A stretch of 64,000 nucleotides of DNA from IMG/VR virus record IMGVR_UViG_3300033984_000416, positions 57,433 to 121,432 of that record. One strand, 5' to 3'. This DNA comes from a virus. Position 1 is the first letter of the stretch, and each line of letters starts with the position of its first letter. A model generated the notes under the pieces. The model made no database searches. It was not told the origin of the DNA and saw only the letters and a program-made list of their open reading frames with translations. The position numbers and the translations under genes are program-made. Shown here one piece after another: positions 1,966-26,022 of this stretch.

Positions 1966-4900
1966 TTATGCGTAACTTGCAAGATTTGGTGGGTTAGGTG
2001 GTGTACCATCTTTTATTTGTTTACCAGCATATTCCCAATAAAAATTATTATTAGTTTTATCTGGTGTTCTACTAATAACACCAACAGCTTTTGACGATTT
2101 TGGGTTATAAGCTAAAAATTCAGTCCTAGTACCTATAAATGACCTAGAATTCTCCTGTAATGTTGTATCTTTTAGTGCCGCAATTGTTTCAGTTAAGAAA
2201 GATTTAGCTTTACTACTAGTTATTGATTTAGAATTCATAACTGCTTTAATTGCAGTTTGTTCGTCAGATATAGCTTTCCATTCTGGTCTATTCTTAAATG
2301 TTGGTTCGTATTGACCTTCCTGTACCACAACCTCTTTGATTGTTTTACCGTATGGTTGTTTAGGTACTGAAACTCTGTTATAAATTGATTGTGCAACATC
2401 GGCTCTACTTTGTGGGCCACCAGCTTCTAAAGAACATATCGCCATCAACGCCCAATAATCTGCTTTATCACCTAAAACAATTTCAACACCATCTTTATAT
2501 TTTATTTGTTTATAAATACAATCTTTATAAATACTATCCTTACCATCATTTGATTTAGGGTTTTTAACAAAATCAAATTGAGCTTGGAATTTTTTAATTT
2601 TATACCCACCAGTTGATGTTGGGTTATCTTTAGCACAATATTGAGCAGCAGTACCTTGGTATTCAAAATGCCAGTATTCGTTATAACTACCAACGCCATC
2701 TCTCATTAAATATGGTAATTCAAAACCATATCTATATGAATTTTCTAATAACCATTCTAATGCTGGGTTGTTGGCAATATCAAAATATTTGACTAGACCA
2801 TTTGTATTATCTATTTTAGTTCCATCTTTTTCAAAATAACCTAAATCAATAGCAATACCCCATTGGTGATTCGACACACCTTTACTAGCATTTGAACCAG
2901 CCGCAGCTTGGTCGGCTTCAGTTCTATAAGCTGATGTTATTCTAGCAAAAGTTTTACCATTATCAGTTCCTTTGAAACCATTTTCTTTCATCCATGTAAC
3001 CCAATCTTTTAACATATTTTCTAATGGTACAATTGCTTCAGCAATTAAACGATTTTTGTGTTTATCATTTTTAGATGTAAGTTGATTTGAGATACCAGCT
3101 ATAGTTGGTATTTCTAATAATTTAATATTTTTAGCCTCAATATTAGACGGTGAACCACCGTTATCAATTATTGTTAATACTATTGCTGGGTATGCTTTAG
3201 TACTAGAAACATTAGTAACCGCACCATCACCAGCTTGGCTTGTATCCATTCCTTCGGCTAACGACATGTATAAATCCATTGCTGTCATTAATGGTGTTTC
3301 TGTGTATTTAATCCTAACACCACTAAAATTTGTCATCATTGAGTTTGGTTTAATAGAATGTTTAACCCTAGTAATCATATAGGCACCATGAAACATTGGT
3401 ATATTATCCAATTGGAAATACATCATTGGTTGAATCATAGCATTACCCATCATTTCTATTTCTGCCGTATAACTTCTTACTGAATATACATTATAAATGT
3501 TTTGACCAGCTATTGTTCTATTTGTTTCAGAACCTTTTTGTGATATGTCTTCCTGTATTTGAAGTGACTCATCAGTTTCTGAAAATTCGCTTTGGTCTAG
3601 GTTGATATCTTTAAATATATTTTGATTTTGTTGACTGTATTTTACAGTAAACACACCCATACCATCTTCAAAATCATTTAAGTCGGTTGTAAAATCATCT
3701 GGAACGGTACTTGGACTAACGTTACCATTTTCATCACATCGTAAATTTATACCATCATCTGGATAATCAGCATTTTTGTAGTCTAAGTGTTTAGATTTTT
3801 GTCCAGAGTATACACATACAAAAGTTGGCCCACACGAACCTTTTGTTACCGCCTCACCATAGTTTGGAAATGGTTTAAAAATTGATTCAACTTCTTTTGG
3901 GTCACGGAAATTAATAAATGTTGGTAACGCCACAAAATCAAATTTATTAGACGCTAACATTGAACTAATAGCATCGTAAGCACTAGTGTTTGAATTTTCA
4001 ACCAAGTAATCATTGATTGGTAGTGGGTTAATATATAACTTATCACCAATATCTTTAAACGACCTACTAACAAATCTAAAAGAGTCTATAAATTTAGGTG
4101 TTTTATTACCATAATGGTCACCTAATTTAGCATCTACGTTGCTTCGACCACCGTCAACACCACCACATTGATAAAGTATTTTATCAGCACTAGTTGTTCC
4201 AGCTAACCATTTATCACGTATGTTTTTACATGTTCTATATAATTGTAACTTAATCACATCTTCATTGGCAGTACCAAATAAAGATTGTTCTAAATTTTTT
4301 TTAACATTTACATCAGAATAAGCACTAGCAGTTGTTTGTAATTTTTTTAATATAGTGTTAATGTATAAATCAAAATTTTTCTTAGTTACAGAAATTTCTT
4401 CAAATTCATTTCTATTCGTTGTGGCTACAGATGCTGACCCACCACCACCAATAGCCCCAGAGCCACCATATGTACCTACTTGTGTTGTAGTTGTACCTAC
4501 TTTTGTCCATATTTTATAACCAGTATTTGCGATGATAACAGGTTGCATCAATGCCGACATTAATGTGGTTACAGCACTATTGTTTGTATAATCACCATCT
4601 AGTTCTAAAGCTAAGTAATCAGTATGCACCGATGCTGACGAACCATCTGTTGTTGGTAAAGGTGTAATTATTTTATATGCTTTACCGTTTGAACCGTTTC
4701 TAAAATTTGGATTTGTGAAACTTGATGCTGGAACGTTGTAGACATCTTTATCTTTATCTAGTGTTATTGTTACACGCAATGCTTTTAACCATACATTAAA
4801 ATCACCACCAGAACCAGTCCATATTTCTAAGTTTTCACTTATAGATTTCCATGATATCATACCGTCAGTTCCATTAACAAATTCAAAGAACATTCTTTTG

Positions 4901-7900
4901 AATTCATTTTTTACCTGTTGTGGTAATCTATTAATAAGGTGTTCATCATCAATTTCTTGATAATCTATTAACGCTGTAAGCTCTAAGGCTGTTACATACA
5001 TATCTCGTGTAGGTGGTGTAAATGTTTGTGTTAAGTTTTTATGCCAAAGTATTGGGTCGTTCTTTCCAGAACCACCACCCGTTATTTTACCACCTTCAAC
5101 CACTGGGTTGTTTGTTTGTTTTCGCCATATTATACTACCTATATAAGCACACCAAAGTCTAGGTGCGTGAACAAAACCACCTTTTTTATCAAACAAGTGT
5201 TTAATTTCATTTGTTTCTAAAGCACTACCTTTGGTTGTATTCCATGGAAGTGAATTTAAAAATAAAAACGCTTTTGAATAATCACCACATGGAACCGTTG
5301 AGTTACTTGAAGTTGTTATACGTGCATATCCTTGGTTATAATAAAAATAACTACCAAATAAACTAAAAGAATCCTCATCATAAGCATCTCTATAATTAAC
5401 GTTTTCAGATGCTTTAAACATAAAGGCTCTTTGTTCAACATAAGGGTAAGTAATATCTTTAACATTATTGTTTATCCATTCGTTAAAAAAGTCTCTGTTT
5501 TTACCTAAATCTAAGTGAAGTGTATCTATTTTTTTTCCTTTATACCAACCTTTGTAAAACTCTTCTTTATTTGCTGGTAGCCTAATGTTTCCAGTTTTTT
5601 TGAAATCCGACCATGATGTTGCTGAACTTCCGTCTGGTGAATTATCGTGTTTTTTTCTATTATACGCTAAACCACCATCTGTATTTTTATAAAACACAAA
5701 CTCTAAGGGTAATTTAGTCATTCCATTACCATAATCTAAATTAGCATACTCTTGAATACCTAAAGGTCCACCAAATGTATTGTAACCAGCACTATTATCA
5801 ACAATTTCATCGGCTGATAGTTTTTCCAATATTAACATATTGTTTTCTGGTTTAACTTTTTCTGGTGCTGGATATAAAAGTGCTTTTGTTTTAAACTCAT
5901 CTGCTTTTAGTATTTTAATATAAACACCACCATCATCTGGTTTACTAAAATCACCATTTATTGTCGTTGCTGTACCATAATTAGAGCTGTAATTAGTTAA
6001 AAAAATGTAACCTTCTTCTTTTGATTTTAATGAAGTTTTAGCTGGTTCAATAATCCACTTACCAGTATAACCACCATTAATTGGTATTACCATGTGTAAA
6101 TCTGGATTACTGTACGTATATGTTTTTGTTTTTGTAGATACTGGGTTTCCACCAATATAGTTATAAAAATAATTATCACCTAGAGGTTTTATTACATTTG
6201 TTGGTAATGCACCTCTAGCGTTTAAATCTATTTCACCAATTACACTAGTCACAGCACTTAGAGTTAACATAGACATCGATGATTTTATTTTAGGGTCTTT
6301 AACACCTCTTAATATGGCTTCAGATTCAATCTCGGCCATACTAATAATATCATCAGAAGTCATAATTGTTTCATCGTTTGTATAACCTAAAAAAGTCATA
6401 CCTCTAATAACCATAAGTCTTGCAACTTCATCGTAATTTTTAAATTCCATTCTACTGTATGGCTCTGTAGTGTTAAAAATAGATGTATCAATTGGGTTGC
6501 TTGGGAACCAAGTTGTTTCTTGTTTTTCGGTATCCGCTTTAACATCTTCACTAGCTTTTGCGGCTTTTAAAAATGCCGCCAATAAATCATCAATAAATAC
6601 TAATTCATTAACATCTTTAGGTTTTTCTAAAACACCTAAAGTACCTAAATATTTTTCAACATAGCTTTTTGTTTTTTCATCTTTTTCTCGATAATCTGGC
6701 CATGAAAAATATTTTTTAGTATCTAAATGTCTTTGCGTTAAATCACTATTTACAATATCAGTTTTAAATTTTTTTTCTAGTTGGGTTGTTCTAGGGTCGT
6801 TTGGTTCAAATTCAGCCGCAACCGAAACATCAAAAATAGTTTCCATAAACACTTCAACGGCAGCTGTAAATACTTCTGTAATATTTCTAACGGTTGGTTC
6901 AAACCCTAAATCTTTTGCAACGCTACTTTTTAATTCTTTAGCAAATTCTTCTTTTGCCCCTTTTAAATTTTGTTCAATTTGAGTTCTAGCCACAGATATT
7001 TTTTCAAATAATAAATTCATGTTGTAAATATCAACAACCACTTTTGGGTGATTAAATTTATAATTTGTGTTTAAATAATCATACAATTCTTTTTTGAATT
7101 TAGAAAAATCACTAGGTGAACCTAATGTTTGTTTTAAAACTTCATCAACCGCTGGGTCGCTAGTTGCTGGGTCTAGCATTTCTAAAGTTAAATTACCATA
7201 AAAACCCTTTCCTGGACCAGCTATGCTTATATCTTGAAATTCTTTAAGTACTAATTGAGCACCAGCTTTAAATGCGTTGAATGTGTCTATGTTTGTTTTA
7301 ATATTCTCAGAGTATAACCCTATTGCTCTATCTTGATTTATTTTATCAGTGTCTGAAACTTCGTGAAGTTTCACGATATATGGGTATCTTTCTTTATTGG
7401 TATCAATATCAATAACTTGTCCCAATACTCTCATAACAATTTCTATAGCGTCTAGACTTTCTAAAGCTTTATTTATAGTATTTGTAGCAGCTGCGTTTTT
7501 AGATGATGATGATAATTTGCTTATACCTTTATTAACCTTAGAAATTGCTTGCATTAATTCAACCAAAGTTAATAATTGTGGTGCATCAGCTTTTCTATTG
7601 TCTCTATATTTTTGGTATTTATCTTCACCTATTGTTGTAAAAGGTATAGCTTTTAAATAACCAATAAGCATATCTGATAACATTGCGTAAGTATAACCGA
7701 TAAATTGACATTGAATTTCAAAATTACCAGTTTGTGAATTAAATTTAGAACTAAATTTAAGCATGTGAAGACAATAAGTTACTGGTAACCCGTAGTATCC
7801 TTTTATTTCCAATTCAAACAATGGATATGGTAGTTGGAAAAACGTAGCATATTTATTACCACTATTATTTCCACTTATTTTTTCCTCATTTTGAAATATT

Positions 7901-12915: not shown

Positions 12916-12933
12916 AAGTAACTTATTTTATAT

Positions 12934-12941
12934 ATAAATAC
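12934..12941 (-). promoter_or_regulatory. Late-type motif variant (GTATTTAT on the gene strand)
   Basis: Minus strand reads AGTATTTATATATAAAATAA, ending 18 nt before the ATG at 12915. One base differs from the common core ATATTTAT. Confidence 0.45.
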
Positions 12942-12990
12942 TATAGTAGTAAAAATTTTGAAAAAATAAATGCTTATGGTGTTTTATAAA

Positions 12991-13020
12991 AACAAAAAAA
13001 GGCACAATTAGTGCCTTAAT
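12991..13020 (-). terminator. Rho-independent terminator after tape-measure gene
   Basis: Arms AAGGCAC / GTGCCTT (13017-13011 and 13005-12999 on the minus strand) with a 5-nt loop are followed by a T run on the minus strand. It ends transcripts coming from the tape-measure operon. Confidence 0.75.
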
Positions 13021-13195
13021 TAAAAATATATAATTTTATTTATATATATTATATTATTTATATATTAATTTTATTATTTATATATTATATGTTATTTTTT
13101 TATTTGTACAAATATACGGTTTTTTTTTCATAAAGTCAAGTTAATACATATAAACTTTTATAACAATATTCTAATTGATTGATAATCAACGATAT
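13018..13195. other. Extremely AT-rich gene-free spacer
   Basis: Between the tape-measure stop and the terminator there is a run of almost only A and T, with two near-copies of TTATTATTTATATATTA. No ORF of useful length is present. It may be an untranslated 3' region; nothing else is supported. Confidence 0.4.
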
Positions 13196-21007: not shown

Positions 21008-23854
21008 TTAGATGTTATCAAAAGATGCACCTGTATTCATAATTACAAATTCTAATTGAATGAACTCTAAAGCTCTTGTTGGTTTCAAGAAGATTTGACC
21101 AGTTAATTGATTTCTATCGATATCCTCTGGGTCATTCGAAAGAACAACACGGAAATCTGTAAGACCTCTTTCACTTCTAATGTTATCCAAGATTGGGTTA
21201 ACAAGTGCCAAGAATTGGTTTCTAACTACGTTATCATTTTGTTCAAATAACAATCTGATAGAAACAGCAGAAATAAGTTTTCTAGCTTGTAATAACAATC
21301 TTCTAACGTTGATTCTGTTAAGTGCTGTATCTTTAACTTGAAGTGTTTTATTACCCCAGATTTTAATACCATCACTTGTGAATGTAGCGATAGGGTTGAT
21401 TCTATTTTCATAAAGAACATCTCTTTCAGCAAGAGTAAGTTTTTTACGAGCTTGAATAGCATCAACATCACCTCTTTGGATACCAGCAACCGCAAACCAT
21501 GGGAATGAAATGTTGTCAGTAAGTGCGATGTTTCTAACTACATCTCTTGTAGGTGGCATGAATATGTAAACATTGTTTTCAGCATCGTTTACTTGAATCC
21601 AAGGCCAGTAAGTACAAGAATAGTTACTATCGTAAGCACCATCTAAAGAGTCAGTGATATCTTCAACAGTCATTACATCACCACCACCATCTAAATCTGG
21701 AGTTGTCATGATATATAATGAGTCAGCTCTATCAGTTTCAATCATATCGATTGTAGCCTCAATAAGGTTAGAGTTATCTAAGTTATCAATACCAGGTGTA
21801 GCAAACACGTTAATGTTAACCGCTTCTGGGTTTTTGAATGTCCAAATAGCTTCTAAGTAAGCATAGTAATCAGAGTTGATACCCAAGTCACCGTTTGTTA
21901 AGTTTCTAGGTACAAAAGCACCAGAAGTTGTACCGTTTTGTCCTAATGTTCCGTTGATTAAGAAACTATCTAAATTACTTCTTCTAGTTCTATAAACATC
22001 CCATCCATCATAACCACCAAATGGTGCCATAGTAAATTTACGAGCATAAACTTTTTCGTATGGTCCATTAACCAATCCAGAATCAGTTCTAAATTGCCAA
22101 TCTCCAGTATCAAATGAGAATACAGGTGAATATGTATTACCGCTTGAATCGATGACAACAGTCACGTTATCAATTGTAACAGCACTAGCATCAATATCCA
22201 TGTGGAATCCGTTTGTCATACCAGTCCACATATTTGGAGAAGTAGTTAAAGGAATACCTTTGTAATCGAAGAAGTCAGCATCAATACCTACAGTTTCAGA
22301 AAGACCTAAGTAGAACTTACGTTTGTTTTCGTATTGTGTGTATTCAGTTTTGTATGTTAATTTAGGGTTAACAACTGAAGTATTACCATTAGTTTGGTAA
22401 TCTCTAATTGGGAAACCTACAAAACCAGCTGGGAAAGCATCACTAGTATCAGATGTATCATCCATATCTACCAATACATAAGAAGATTTAGAAGGATATA
22501 AACCATCAAGTGTACCAATTCTTCTACCAATGTAGTTATTAGAAGTTGGGTCCATTGTACAACGGCTGTAACTTTCTAATACGGTTGGTTGAGCATCAGT
22601 ATCATAGAAAGCTCTAATAACTACGTCAAATTCTCTAGTATCTGGTTTAATGTTTCTAAATGAAATTTTAAATTGTTCATTGGCAGCGTTACCATCAGAG
22701 ATAGTCCAGAATCTGAAAAGTCTCAATACTTTTGTACCACGTAATTCAGATACAACATAAGGAGTAACTGCTGGTTTGTATTCTTGTAAATAATCAGAGT
22801 AATCTCGATTATAATCAACGATAGTTTGTTTTATACCTCTAATTTTACCTTCATTGTTTAATTTATCAAACATTTTGTTGTAAAATTCTTCTAAAAATAA
22901 TGGAGTGTTACCATTTTGAACACTTCTACCTAATACTCTAGGTAAATAGTTTTTCTTAGTTTTATCTAAAGACGCTAAATTTTCAAATAAGCCTTGTGTA
23001 GCAGAAAAACCACTCAAAGAGAAATCACCTAACGGACTAGTAATTGAACCAGTAAATGCTGGGTCAAGAACTACATTTCCAGTAACTTCAAAAGCTGGTA
23101 ATTGTGTAGCTAAATCAATTCCACCTCTAGAACGCATCAAAGCAACTAATTTGTTTTCAACATCAGTATATGCTGTACCTGTAATATCTACAGTTACACC
23201 AGTAGTTACACCAGTGATAAACGCACCAGAAGGGTCATAAGATTTATAATCTAAATAGATGTTAAATGATACACCATTAAATACATTACCAGTTTTGATG
23301 AATTTAGGAGCAACATTAGAAGTAGCACCAATACTCATAGAACTCAAGTAAGCTAAATCGTTTGTTAATTGACCATCATTAATAAGTGCTTGAACCATTG
23401 GGTCTGGAGACGTTACAGTCACCATTGTACCAGCAGAAGTTGCGGTAAATGTTAATAATGGGTTAGCACTATCATATGTGTTAGTACCAGTAACAGCAGA
23501 TGTTGCTGGGTCTAAAGCACCGTCAAGAACAATACCCCAAGCTTTACCAGCGTCATATCCAGAGAAACCTAATACTCTAGTAACGAATAATTGGTTTGAT
23601 TGAGATAAGTATGATTTTGCAATATAAGGTAACTCATATTGAGGTGCCCCATTATCTTTTACTTTTGTAGCGTTAAGGCCACCGAAGAAAGATTGGAATT
23701 CACCGTAGTTTCCAATAAAAATTGGTTGAAATGCTGGTCCGATAGTTGTTTCACCAACTAAACCTAGCGTTGTAACACCTACTTGACGTGTAATAAAAGT
23801 TAAGTCTTTTTCAGATGTATAAACTCCAGGACTTACGAATACTTTTGTTGACAT
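21008..23854 (-). CDS. Tail sheath protein (gp18-like, 948 aa)
   Basis: The N-terminus MSTKVFVSPGVYTSEKDLTF is the standard start of contractile sheath proteins, and the C-terminal domain is clear (SIRLLFEQNDNVVRNQFLAL, GLTDFRVVLSND, then LEFIQLEFVIMNTGASFDNI). Between them lie large inserted beta domains (residues ~100-290 and ~480-640) that would decorate the sheath surface; T4 gp18 is 659 aa, so this one is long. It contracts to drive the tube through the envelope. The gene has a late-type motif 52 nt upstream and a strong terminator downstream, so it can be transcribed on its own at high level. Confidence 0.93.
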   Translation of the reverse strand: MSTKVFVSPGVYTSEKDLTFITRQVGVTTLGLVGETTIGPAFQPIFIGNYGEFQSFFGGLNATKVKDNGAPQYELPYIAKSYLSQSNQLFVTRVLGFSGYDAGKAWGIVLDGALDPATSAVTGTNTYDSANPLLTFTATSAGTMVTVTSPDPMVQALINDGQLTNDLAYLSSMSIGATSNVAPKFIKTGNVFNGVSFNIYLDYKSYDPSGAFITGVTTGVTVDITGTAYTDVENKLVALMRSRGGIDLATQLPAFEVTGNVVLDPAFTGSITSPLGDFSLSGFSATQGLFENLASLDKTKKNYLPRVLGRSVQNGNTPLFLEEFYNKMFDKLNNEGKIRGIKQTIVDYNRDYSDYLQEYKPAVTPYVVSELRGTKVLRLFRFWTISDGNAANEQFKISFRNIKPDTREFDVVIRAFYDTDAQPTVLESYSRCTMDPTSNNYIGRRIGTLDGLYPSKSSYVLVDMDDTSDTSDAFPAGFVGFPIRDYQTNGNTSVVNPKLTYKTEYTQYENKRKFYLGLSETVGIDADFFDYKGIPLTTSPNMWTGMTNGFHMDIDASAVTIDNVTVVIDSSGNTYSPVFSFDTGDWQFRTDSGLVNGPYEKVYARKFTMAPFGGYDGWDVYRTRRSNLDSFLINGTLGQNGTTSGAFVPRNLTNGDLGINSDYYAYLEAIWTFKNPEAVNINVFATPGIDNLDNSNLIEATIDMIETDRADSLYIMTTPDLDGGGDVMTVEDITDSLDGAYDSNYSCTYWPWIQVNDAENNVYIFMPPTRDVVRNIALTDNISFPWFAVAGIQRGDVDAIQARKKLTLAERDVLYENRINPIATFTSDGIKIWGNKTLQVKDTALNRINVRRLLLQARKLISAVSIRLLFEQNDNVVRNQFLALVNPILDNIRSERGLTDFRVVLSNDPEDIDRNQLTGQIFLKPTRALEFIQLEFVIMNTGASFDNI

Positions 23855-23993: not shown

Positions 23994-24158
23994 ATGATAA
24001 AAACAATGATGAAAAGGGATAAAAACTTAAAAATAACACCAACAACACATGAACTTTTAAAAAAGTATTGTGAAGAAAATGGTTTAAAAATGTTTGCTTT
24101 TGTGGAAAAATTAATTCGAGAAAGATGTTCACCGAAAAAAGATTTATATGGTGAATAG
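23994..24158 (+). CDS. Small ribbon-helix-helix-like protein (54 aa)
   Basis: The frame is MIKTMMKRDKNLKITPTTHE and continues LLKKYCEENGLKMFAFVEKL to the stop at 24158. A basic start, one strand (NLKIT), and two helices split by ENG match the pattern of Arc/CopG-type ribbon-helix-helix regulators. Initiation at one of the internal Met codons (MMKRDK) is possible. It has a host-type promoter and a perfect-stem terminator, so it is a complete one-gene unit on the strand opposite to its neighbours. A DNA-binding regulator role is inferred. Confidence 0.65.
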   Translation: MIKTMMKRDKNLKITPTTHELLKKYCEENGLKMFAFVEKLIRERCSPKKDLYGE

Positions 24159-24179
24159 TGATATTCAATTAGATTAAGA

Positions 24180-24219
24180 AAGCTCTCTCCGTAACTTAGT
24201 TGAGAGAGCTTGGTTTTTA
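24180..24219 (+). terminator. Terminator of the small regulator gene (perfect 10-bp stem)
   Basis: AAGCTCTCTC (24180-24189) pairs fully with GAGAGAGCTT (24202-24211) and is followed on the plus strand by GGTTTTTA. On the minus strand it forms the last hairpin of the structured RNA candidate. Confidence 0.75.
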
Positions 24220-24948
24220 TCGAATAGAGTTCTAGAGTTCTTTTCGCTTAACCACTCCTAATCATTAGAAGTGATAGTCTGAGTCATTCCCTTTACAAAA
24301 ACGGAACTTATTGTTGTGTGCAACCTTTACAGGGATAAAGGCCCGATATAGTCATACGTCTCCACTGTTCTATACCAAACCCAATCAAATAAAGTCCTCG
24401 CTTCCACCGTTTTGCTCATTGAGTTTTATCGCTCACGGGCTCCCTTAAGTAATAGGGGGTTACTCGAATATTTATTTAAAAGACCCAAAAAAGTTAGGGT
24501 CGCACACAGTTACATTTACTAAGCTCCACAGCATGATTACTCACATTGCTTCTCAGAACAGTCTATAACCCAACAATTCCTCGCCAGCATTACAGCATGA
24601 CACAAATTAAGTTAAATATCTTAACTACCAACTCGATTACAAAATAAGCACCACTAAATCCACGCCTCGACTTTTACAGTCATAAATTTACTTTAGCCCT
24701 ATGATAACCGAGTCGTTACCGACATATCACTTCTTTTTGGGTTGAGTTTCGAAATGGCTTAGCCAAATCTAGATACATTAACTTGGTTTGGCAGAAGGAG
24801 CTAACCATCTCATCCACTCACAGTAGATACCTCGTTTCTTATACCTTAGTCATTTGTGCACGGAATGGTAACCACCCCTTTCGGTAGAATTAATAACTAC
24901 CATGCATTTCCCAACTAATTTCTCAACCCTTATTTATTATTATACGTT
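24180..24948 (-). ncRNA. Large structured RNA candidate (about 770 nt), no known family assigned
   Basis: No ORF of note exists here on either strand and the sequence is visibly richer in G and C than its surroundings. Read on the minus strand it folds by eye into many helices: an 8-bp closing helix GGGTTGAG/CTCAACCC (24929-24922 with 24746-24739), GCCAAA/TTTGGC (24792-24787 with 24767-24762), GGTAG/CTACC (24901-24883), and GTCG-GTAA-CGAC with a GNRA loop (24723-24712). Two helices (24273-24253 and 24376-24370 with 24351-24345) contain G-U pairs on the minus strand that would be A-C mismatches on the plus strand, which sets the orientation. An internal hairpin at 24501-24482 ending in TTTT may divide it in two. 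It follows the 339-aa gene directly. Size and phage setting recall the ROOL and GOLLD RNAs, but I cannot show homology. Confidence 0.7.
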
Positions 24949-25968
24949 TTAATACGTTTTTTTTACTTTAGATTTTTTAGGAACATAATTTATGTTCTCT
25001 AATTTACCTTTAAGTACAATAAGGTTATCAGTTGCAGCTTTTAATGATTCATAAACACCAAGTCTATAAGTTGATAAATTTGATAAACCAGCTTTTTTAT
25101 AACCATTAATAAGATTCATTAAATTTGTATATAATTTTTCATTTGTAAAGTTATCAAGAATTGTTGTTTCTTCATCAGTAGCGAATAACGCTCCTAATGA
25201 TTGTTTTTTAGTAGCAGCTATTTGTCTTTCTAACACCTTTGCTTGTGTTTCTAAAAAATTAACTTCAGTAATAACATCAGTTAACACTACTGGCATTTTA
25301 CCATTTGGATAACTATCAGTAATCAATTTATCAATAACCGATTGTCTAACAACATAAAAAGGTATATCAATATGACCTTCTGCCTCATATTCTGCTCTAA
25401 TTGTTAATAGCTCCACTTCTCTTTCAGAGATTTTCCATTTTTCAAAAGCGACAGCCGTAGCTTCTTTTTCTGCTTGTTCTATTAAAGCAATATTTTCTGG
25501 TGTGTCCCCTTGAACAATACCTGTTGTGTTTCTATAATCTTGTATAAAAGCTCTAAAATTATCTGTAACATAGTATTGTTCCATGGTATCAAACATAGGA
25601 AATTTTGGTTCTGTTACCATAATATCCCTACTAATTTTTGGCACGGCACCAATGTAGTTTTCTAAATTTTGAAATAACCTATCATTAGGTGTAACACTAA
25701 AAAATGGGTATCTTTTTCCATTGATAATTGCTGTTAAATCTAATGATACAGAATAACCAGTTTCCATGTCTGCTTCAAAGCTTAAAGTTTCTTCTAATTT
25801 TTCTTTTGTTGTTGTACCTTTTTTCTCAAAAGTAACACCATTCATCATATGATATACTAATATGTCATATTCAATAATAGCCTCTGGCGTTTCTAATATT
25901 CCAGAATTATTTTCTTCTTCTTCCATTATAAGTAATGCTACTTTTTTTCTAATCGAACCTTGCATCAT
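24949..25968 (-). CDS. Hypothetical virion-region protein (339 aa)
   Basis: A soluble acidic protein, unrecognised. Starts MMQGSIRKKVALLIMEEEEN. Middle contains a charged helix (IALIEQAEKEATAVAFEKWK) and the C-terminal half is largely helical (VNFLETQAKVLERQIAATKK), ending in a basic tail. A late-type motif is 40 nt upstream. It lies between the fibre cluster and the structured RNA, after which the sheath follows. A tail or neck component or an assembly factor is plausible. Confidence 0.65.
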   Translation of the reverse strand: MMQGSIRKKVALLIMEEEENNSGILETPEAIIEYDILVYHMMNGVTFEKKGTTTKEKLEETLSFEADMETGYSVSLDLTAIINGKRYPFFSVTPNDRLFQNLENYIGAVPKISRDIMVTEPKFPMFDTMEQYYVTDNFRAFIQDYRNTTGIVQGDTPENIALIEQAEKEATAVAFEKWKISEREVELLTIRAEYEAEGHIDIPFYVVRQSVIDKLITDSYPNGKMPVVLTDVITEVNFLETQAKVLERQIAATKKQSLGALFATDEETTILDNFTNEKLYTNLMNLINGYKKAGLSNLSTYRLGVYESLKAATDNLIVLKGKLENINYVPKKSKVKKTY

Positions 25969-26008
25969 AATTTTTTGTGTTTTTATTTATTATTATTATT
26001 ATCTTTAT

Positions 26009-26016
26009 ATAAATAT
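26009..26016 (-). promoter_or_regulatory. Late-type motif (ATATTTAT on the gene strand)
   Basis: Minus strand TTGATATATTTATATAAAG lies 40 nt before the ATG at 25968 and just after the stop of the fibre gene at 26023. Confidence 0.5.
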
Positions 26017-26022
26017 ATCAAT

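Follow-up and report, generated by a model that had tools for sequence, protein, structure and literature searches.

What occupies the longest stretch without an open reading frame in the tail region of this T4-like phage? The source record is 121,432 bases long, of which the window (the whole 64,000-nucleotide stretch of DNA that we analysed) covers a part. The ORF-free interval measures about 790 bases and was the sole gap of more than 300 nt when all gaps in the 121-kb record were surveyed. It is bounded on one side by a minus-strand gene for a 339-aa protein (24949..25968) and on the other by a reversed, plus-strand gene for a 54-aa Arc-like repressor (23994..24158; phrog_582, E = 8e-5). 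Beyond the Arc-like gene lies the tail sheath gene (21008..23854, minus strand; phrog_23, E = 1e-56). The tail sheath, tail tube and fibre-like genes of the window are all leftward, and comparison of sheath proteins placed those of a Microcystis phage and of Flavobacterium phages nearest among named sheaths. Elsewhere in the window, a gap of 280 bases (12916-13195) has a GC content of only 14%.

Coding potential, strand and homologues

The initial annotation proposed that the interval specifies a large structured noncoding RNA read leftward, and our sequence comparisons make it very likely that such an RNA is real. As claimed, the interval lacks ORFs: none of at least 50 aa lies within 24169-24948, and the longest open frame in the RNA stretch, on both strands, is at most 59 codons. 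No conserved reading frame was found. Translated similarity was confined to the 3′ end, where the DNA itself is conserved, and it occurred in frames of both strands; a hidden protein is therefore unlikely. The annotation had also pointed to a difference in base composition. At 0.393 the GC content does exceed the genomic 0.332, but values at least as high occurred in 167 of the 2414 genomic windows of the same size, which makes composition alone weak evidence. Folding of the interval favoured the minus strand, with z = −2.9 there and z = −1.1 on the plus strand. For the homologue L010, described below, z was −7.55 on the RNA strand, as against −5.9 on the opposite one. Together with the fold z-scores, 11 G-U cells in the helices support the leftward direction, since, read from the plus strand, each of them would become A-C.

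BLAST of the RNA stretch against 80 loci that had been fetched with the sheath protein yielded a single homologue, the complete L010 (4932-5685), which is similar to the window RNA at both ends only and has the same gene order. A third member, L083 (5130-4644), was recovered by a 3′-end sequence pattern; its contig ends inside the 5′ part, leaving the 3′ two-thirds. Both are IMG/VR contigs, and both carry the RNA at the site equivalent to that of the window. Patterns of the conserved ends, run against IMG/VR and genome contigs, retrieved no further members beyond L010/L082 and L083, and a BLAST search for the RNA in phages and plasmids gave no credible match. A model of domain III (R1), run on 82 sources and 30 whole records, found the three members alone, at 100-113 bits.

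Architecture and covariation of the RNA

The structure supported by homologues and covariation covers 24172..24929 on the minus strand, 758 nt from the 5′ strand of P1 to the 3′ strand of P6. The span first proposed, 24180-24948, thus largely holds, except that the left end of the covarying structure (24929-24172) lies slightly beyond 24180. The predicted RNA has three domains, I (P1-P4), II (closed by P5) and III (P6-P8): the 5′ and 3′ domains are conserved, and the domain between them, held by a long-range helix, is replaceable.

Domain I (24739..24929) is closed by P1, in which 24929-24922 pair with 24746-24739. This helix, already noted in the initial annotation, is retained in L010 with one compensatory change (G-C to A-U) and one one-sided change (G-C to G-U), the strands GGGUUGAG/CUCAACCC of the window becoming GGAUUGAG/CUCAAUCU. 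The pairs of P2 (24918-24913 with 24851-24846) are retained in L010 as well. P2 surrounds P3b (24878-24872 with 24868-24862, within 24846..24918), where one G-U is replaced by A-U in L010. P4 (24845-24840 with 24777-24772), with the stems inside it, occupies 24771..24846, and two G-U pairs of P4 in the window are A-U and C-G in L010. Local alignment of domain I between the window and L010 gave a score of 39.5, as compared with a shuffle maximum of 19.

Domain II (24269..24732) is variable: it measures 464, 390 and 247 nt, and the sequence similarity of its interior is not above chance. It is closed by P5 (24732-24725 with 24276-24269), whose two strands are separated by about 450 nt in the window. 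P5 is present in all three members (AAGUGAUA/UAUCACUU, GAGGUAAUAGU/ACUAUUACCUC and GAAGUGUAAAU/AUUUACACUUC) with four compensatory pairs, and its length exceeds chance in each (108, 23 and 25 of 20000 shuffles). A helix proposed earlier between 24376-24370 and 24351-24345 can be formed by the sequence and sits in this unalignable domain. The middle domain of L010 contains four hairpins with GCUUCGG (UUCG) tetraloops (5380-5505).

Domain III (24172..24263) consists of P6 (24263-24256 with 24179-24172), P7, P7b and P8. Six of its 30 pairs are compensatory; two-sided changes occur in P6 and in P8, a hairpin (24180..24211) with five compensatory pairs among ten. Against these six two-sided changes, shuffles gave 2.3, and sliding the register gave 0-1. 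A hairpin that the annotation had placed at 24273-24253 did not survive this comparison. Although 12 bp can form in the window (p = 0.001), L010 and L083 allow at most 7 and 5 bp, respectively, and the hairpin, extending over 24276-24250, competes with the covarying P5 and P6; it is, therefore, probably not native and may be a folding intermediate or a product of chance.

Over the 55 pairs considered, we counted 11 compensatory and 6 one-sided changes and 1 non-pairing cell, seven helices supplying the compensatory pairs and the 11 G-U cells. These counts come from three members, one of them incomplete, and lie below the reach of formal R-scape significance; when L010 was folded alone thermodynamically, P1 and P6 were not favoured. 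Nevertheless, the check for homologues and covariation that the annotation had called for produced two relatives, and the compensatory changes support a structured RNA. The stretch combines, as a large structured phage noncoding RNA should, an absence of coding capacity with helices that carry such changes. One could envision instead a degenerate intergenic stretch or a recombination site acting at the DNA level, as recombination could give conserved ends and a variable middle, and the GC content of the interval is only slightly unusual. We regard this as extremely improbable, given the compensatory changes in four helices with one-sided changes in others, the G-U pairs on one strand only, and the strong folding of L010.

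Domain III includes a conserved element (24212..24253, minus strand) that contains P7, P7b and the loop ACUCUAGAAC and is identical in the three members except at A24225. Within it, a run of 39 nt (AAGCG...AAAACC) with one differing base among three genomes reads AAGCGAAAAGAACUCUAGAACUCU(A/U)UUCGAUAAAAACC and forms a stem capped by ACUCUAGAAC. This 10-nt loop includes the self-complementary sequence UCUAGA, so that two copies of the RNA are predicted to be able to pair loop to loop, with a calculated energy of −7.2 kcal/mol. By our estimate, about 8% of 10-nt loops would contain a 6-nt palindrome (5 positions × 1/64), so that its presence is not unusual, and because the loop is invariant, its self-pairing has no support from covariation. 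Alternatively, the loop might make an internal contact, since both the window and L010 have a second CUAGA after the 3′ strand of P4, and L083 has a CUAGAUUUGG stretch in its 5′ part. Self-association through the palindromic loop is, on these predictions, conceivable, with the balance somewhat against it. The bare 16-nt loop motif matched 13 more contigs, which we judged to be chance; the best of these matches was in a short hairpin before a capsid-like gene. Hairpins with an identical loop (AGAACUCUAGAACUCU) were seen in six unrelated phages (L098, L100, L101, L102, L106 and L108), and that of L101 precedes an apparent capsid gene. This is probably coincidence.

Distribution and relation to known RNA classes

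The 54-aa Arc-like gene, which is convergent with the RNA, served as a marker of the insertion site. It is present in 69 loci among the sheath relatives, and in nearly all relatives it is reversed and directly ahead of the sheath gene; its product is perhaps a regulator of the sheath promoter. Examination of the relatives' loci showed that the RNA is missing from about 65 of them. These mostly keep the Arc-like gene, and the end of a fibre or other gene lies close against it. Long gaps in L031, L040, L047, L069 and L072 that seemed free of ORFs were in fact ends of ORFs, mostly fibre-like. Since nearly all relatives that share these tail genes lack the RNA, tail assembly in the group cannot generally depend on it, and the virion or assembly role that the annotation raised is conjectural.

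The sheath protein of L083 is 93% identical to that of the RNA-less L058 and 73% identical to that of the window. Between the window and L083, domain III is 95.6% identical and outranks the adjoining genes in conservation, whereas the sheath DNA is only 75% identical. These values suggest that the cassette probably moved between phages or was exchanged by recombination, and we consider it likely that the RNA is a laterally moving accessory cassette. The site between the tail-fibre genes and the Arc-like gene is variable. At the same position, L026 carries a gene of about 620 aa with DUF7487 (86-1948) and L065 one of about 620 aa with a DUF4379/Mom-like domain (3836-5692), each running against the direction of the sheath gene. 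Such genes mark the insertion site as an accessory-gene hotspot.

ROOL is an octameric RNA nanocage, and GOLLD is a 14-mer nanocage induced at lysis. OLE RNA belongs to extremophilic Gram-positive bacteria, and the phi29 packaging RNA (pRNA) is a phage RNA that assembles via loop-loop pairing. Scans against the whole of Rfam, at gathering and at permissive thresholds, gave only chance matches; they returned no OLE match in the window and no match to pRNA, which is far smaller than the window RNA. The ROOL model (RF03087; gathering threshold 99.1 bits) found nothing at E ≤ 10 in the window record, the L010 record or L083, in a search of limited power and unproven sensitivity, as 14 control genomes were silent too. 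The GOLLD model (RF02032; gathering threshold 150 bits) gave no match at E ≤ 10, the group II intron model RF01998 had none in the three records, and the 64-kb window contains no tRNA genes. The resemblance to ROOL and GOLLD suggested by the annotation thus stands in kind, but neither covariance model matches.

Like ROOL, the window RNA is phage-borne, accessory and multi-domain, falls in the same size class, and has a variable linker and probable loop-loop contacts (PMC12286853). Unlike ROOL, which is often near tRNAs, it resides in a phage with no tRNA island in the window, and its conserved domain III was found in three phage contigs only. With GOLLD it shares a length of about 800 nt, a phage location and, in part, the pattern of a conserved 3′ domain with a divergent remainder (PMC12286853); it differs in that its 5′ domain is also conserved (in two members), its middle is replaced and tRNAs are absent. 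Late or lysis expression has been reported for GOLLD (PMC12286853), whereas for the window RNA we only infer it. OLE, too, is a large RNA that has protein partners and a symmetric kissing loop, and loops of this kind hold the ROOL, GOLLD and OLE oligomers together (PMC12286853). Judged by sequence, then, the window RNA would be an uncatalogued class among large structured phage noncoding RNAs, neither ROOL nor GOLLD.

Expression, partner protein and possible function

The sequence TATTTATA (consensus TGATATTTATAATAAA) lies 20-60 bases upstream of many leftward genes of the window and resembles a late promoter. This putative promoter is strong ahead of the 339-aa gene (ATATATTTATATAAAGATAATA, 25997..26018, minus strand; 16.4 bits) and ahead of the sheath gene (23854; 18.3 bits), but at the start of the RNA the best score is about 0 bits, within background. 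We propose, therefore, that the RNA is probably cut from the late 339-aa transcript. On the plus strand, P8 is followed by GGTTTTTATC (T5), and the T run is found on that strand only. This terminator-like element could end the Arc-like transcript, and the changes in P8 could also serve such a terminator. Relatives without the RNA mostly lack such an element after the Arc-like gene, which indicates that it arrived with the cassette.

One hypothesis built on these features is that the stretch acts in cis, as a long structured 3′ UTR or as a region in which the 339-aa mRNA and the transcript of the convergent Arc-like gene are processed or terminated. Structure at the 3′ end stabilises messages, the RNA has no promoter motif of its own, and P8 with its T5 is suitably placed. 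We think that this is quite unlikely, because three domains with long-range helices, about 760 nt in all, far exceed the needs of a terminator or stabiliser, a terminator-like element is missing there in most relatives, and the comparison of the window with L083 shows stronger conservation of domain III than of the adjoining genes. A different proposal is that the RNA is a monomeric scaffold or guide complexed with the 339-aa protein rather than an RNA-only assembly. The 339-aa gene ends 19 nt ahead of P1, and the same spacing holds in both complete members. Its homologue was found only in L010 (55% identical), which likewise carries the RNA, with no other occurrence in viral or genome collections. 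The gene thus accompanies the RNA wherever that side is visible, a single late promoter probably serves both, and the conserved ends and unconserved middle of the RNA are as expected if the ends bind protein. The protein, however, has no match in Pfam or PHROGs and no recognisable nucleic-acid-binding domain, and its AlphaFold model (pLDDT 46) is too poor for structure search. Moreover, the pairing is seen in two genomes, themselves close relatives, the L083 contig stopping before the gene. That the protein partners with the RNA at all is rather doubtful, and the scaffold or guide is, to our minds, unlikely, if slightly less so than the cis-acting region. Were the RNA a moron that shields the phage from host nucleases or abortive systems, by counter-defence or as a decoy, this would account for the patchy presence, apparent lateral transfer and variable site, which resemble those of counter-defence genes, and in other relatives the site holds other accessory genes such as those with DUF7487 and Mom/DUF4379. 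Expression is expected to be late, not early, and Rfam gave no match to a known anti-defence RNA; we hold this explanation to be very unlikely.

Our preferred account, offered tentatively and at somewhat below even chances, is that of an accessory late phage noncoding RNA that travels as a cassette with the 339-aa gene, associates with itself and has an exchangeable middle. Judging by the motifs, transcription would start at the late promoter of the 339-aa gene, and processing would free the RNA from that transcript. With lesser support, the conserved 3′ domain would make RNA-RNA contacts via its palindromic loop, by which copies might form a dimer or a larger assembly, and the variable domain would, in the manner of ROOL and GOLLD, be on display or enclosed; the RNA may have the 339-aa protein as its partner. 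A bolder version, in which a mobile phage RNA device of a new kind has two conserved domains that link copies via kissing loops around an exchangeable RNA domain of 250-460 nt and moves between phages with a dedicated protein, seems to us improbable.

To our knowledge, few RNA classes beyond ribosomes, introns and RNase P are so large and ornate. Two of these classes, ROOL and GOLLD, are phage RNAs that build hollow cages. The addition of an unrelated third one, whose middle is replaceable and for which a partner protein can be nominated, would mean that phages arrived at such RNAs repeatedly, and the naturally empty sites of close relatives make its function testable.
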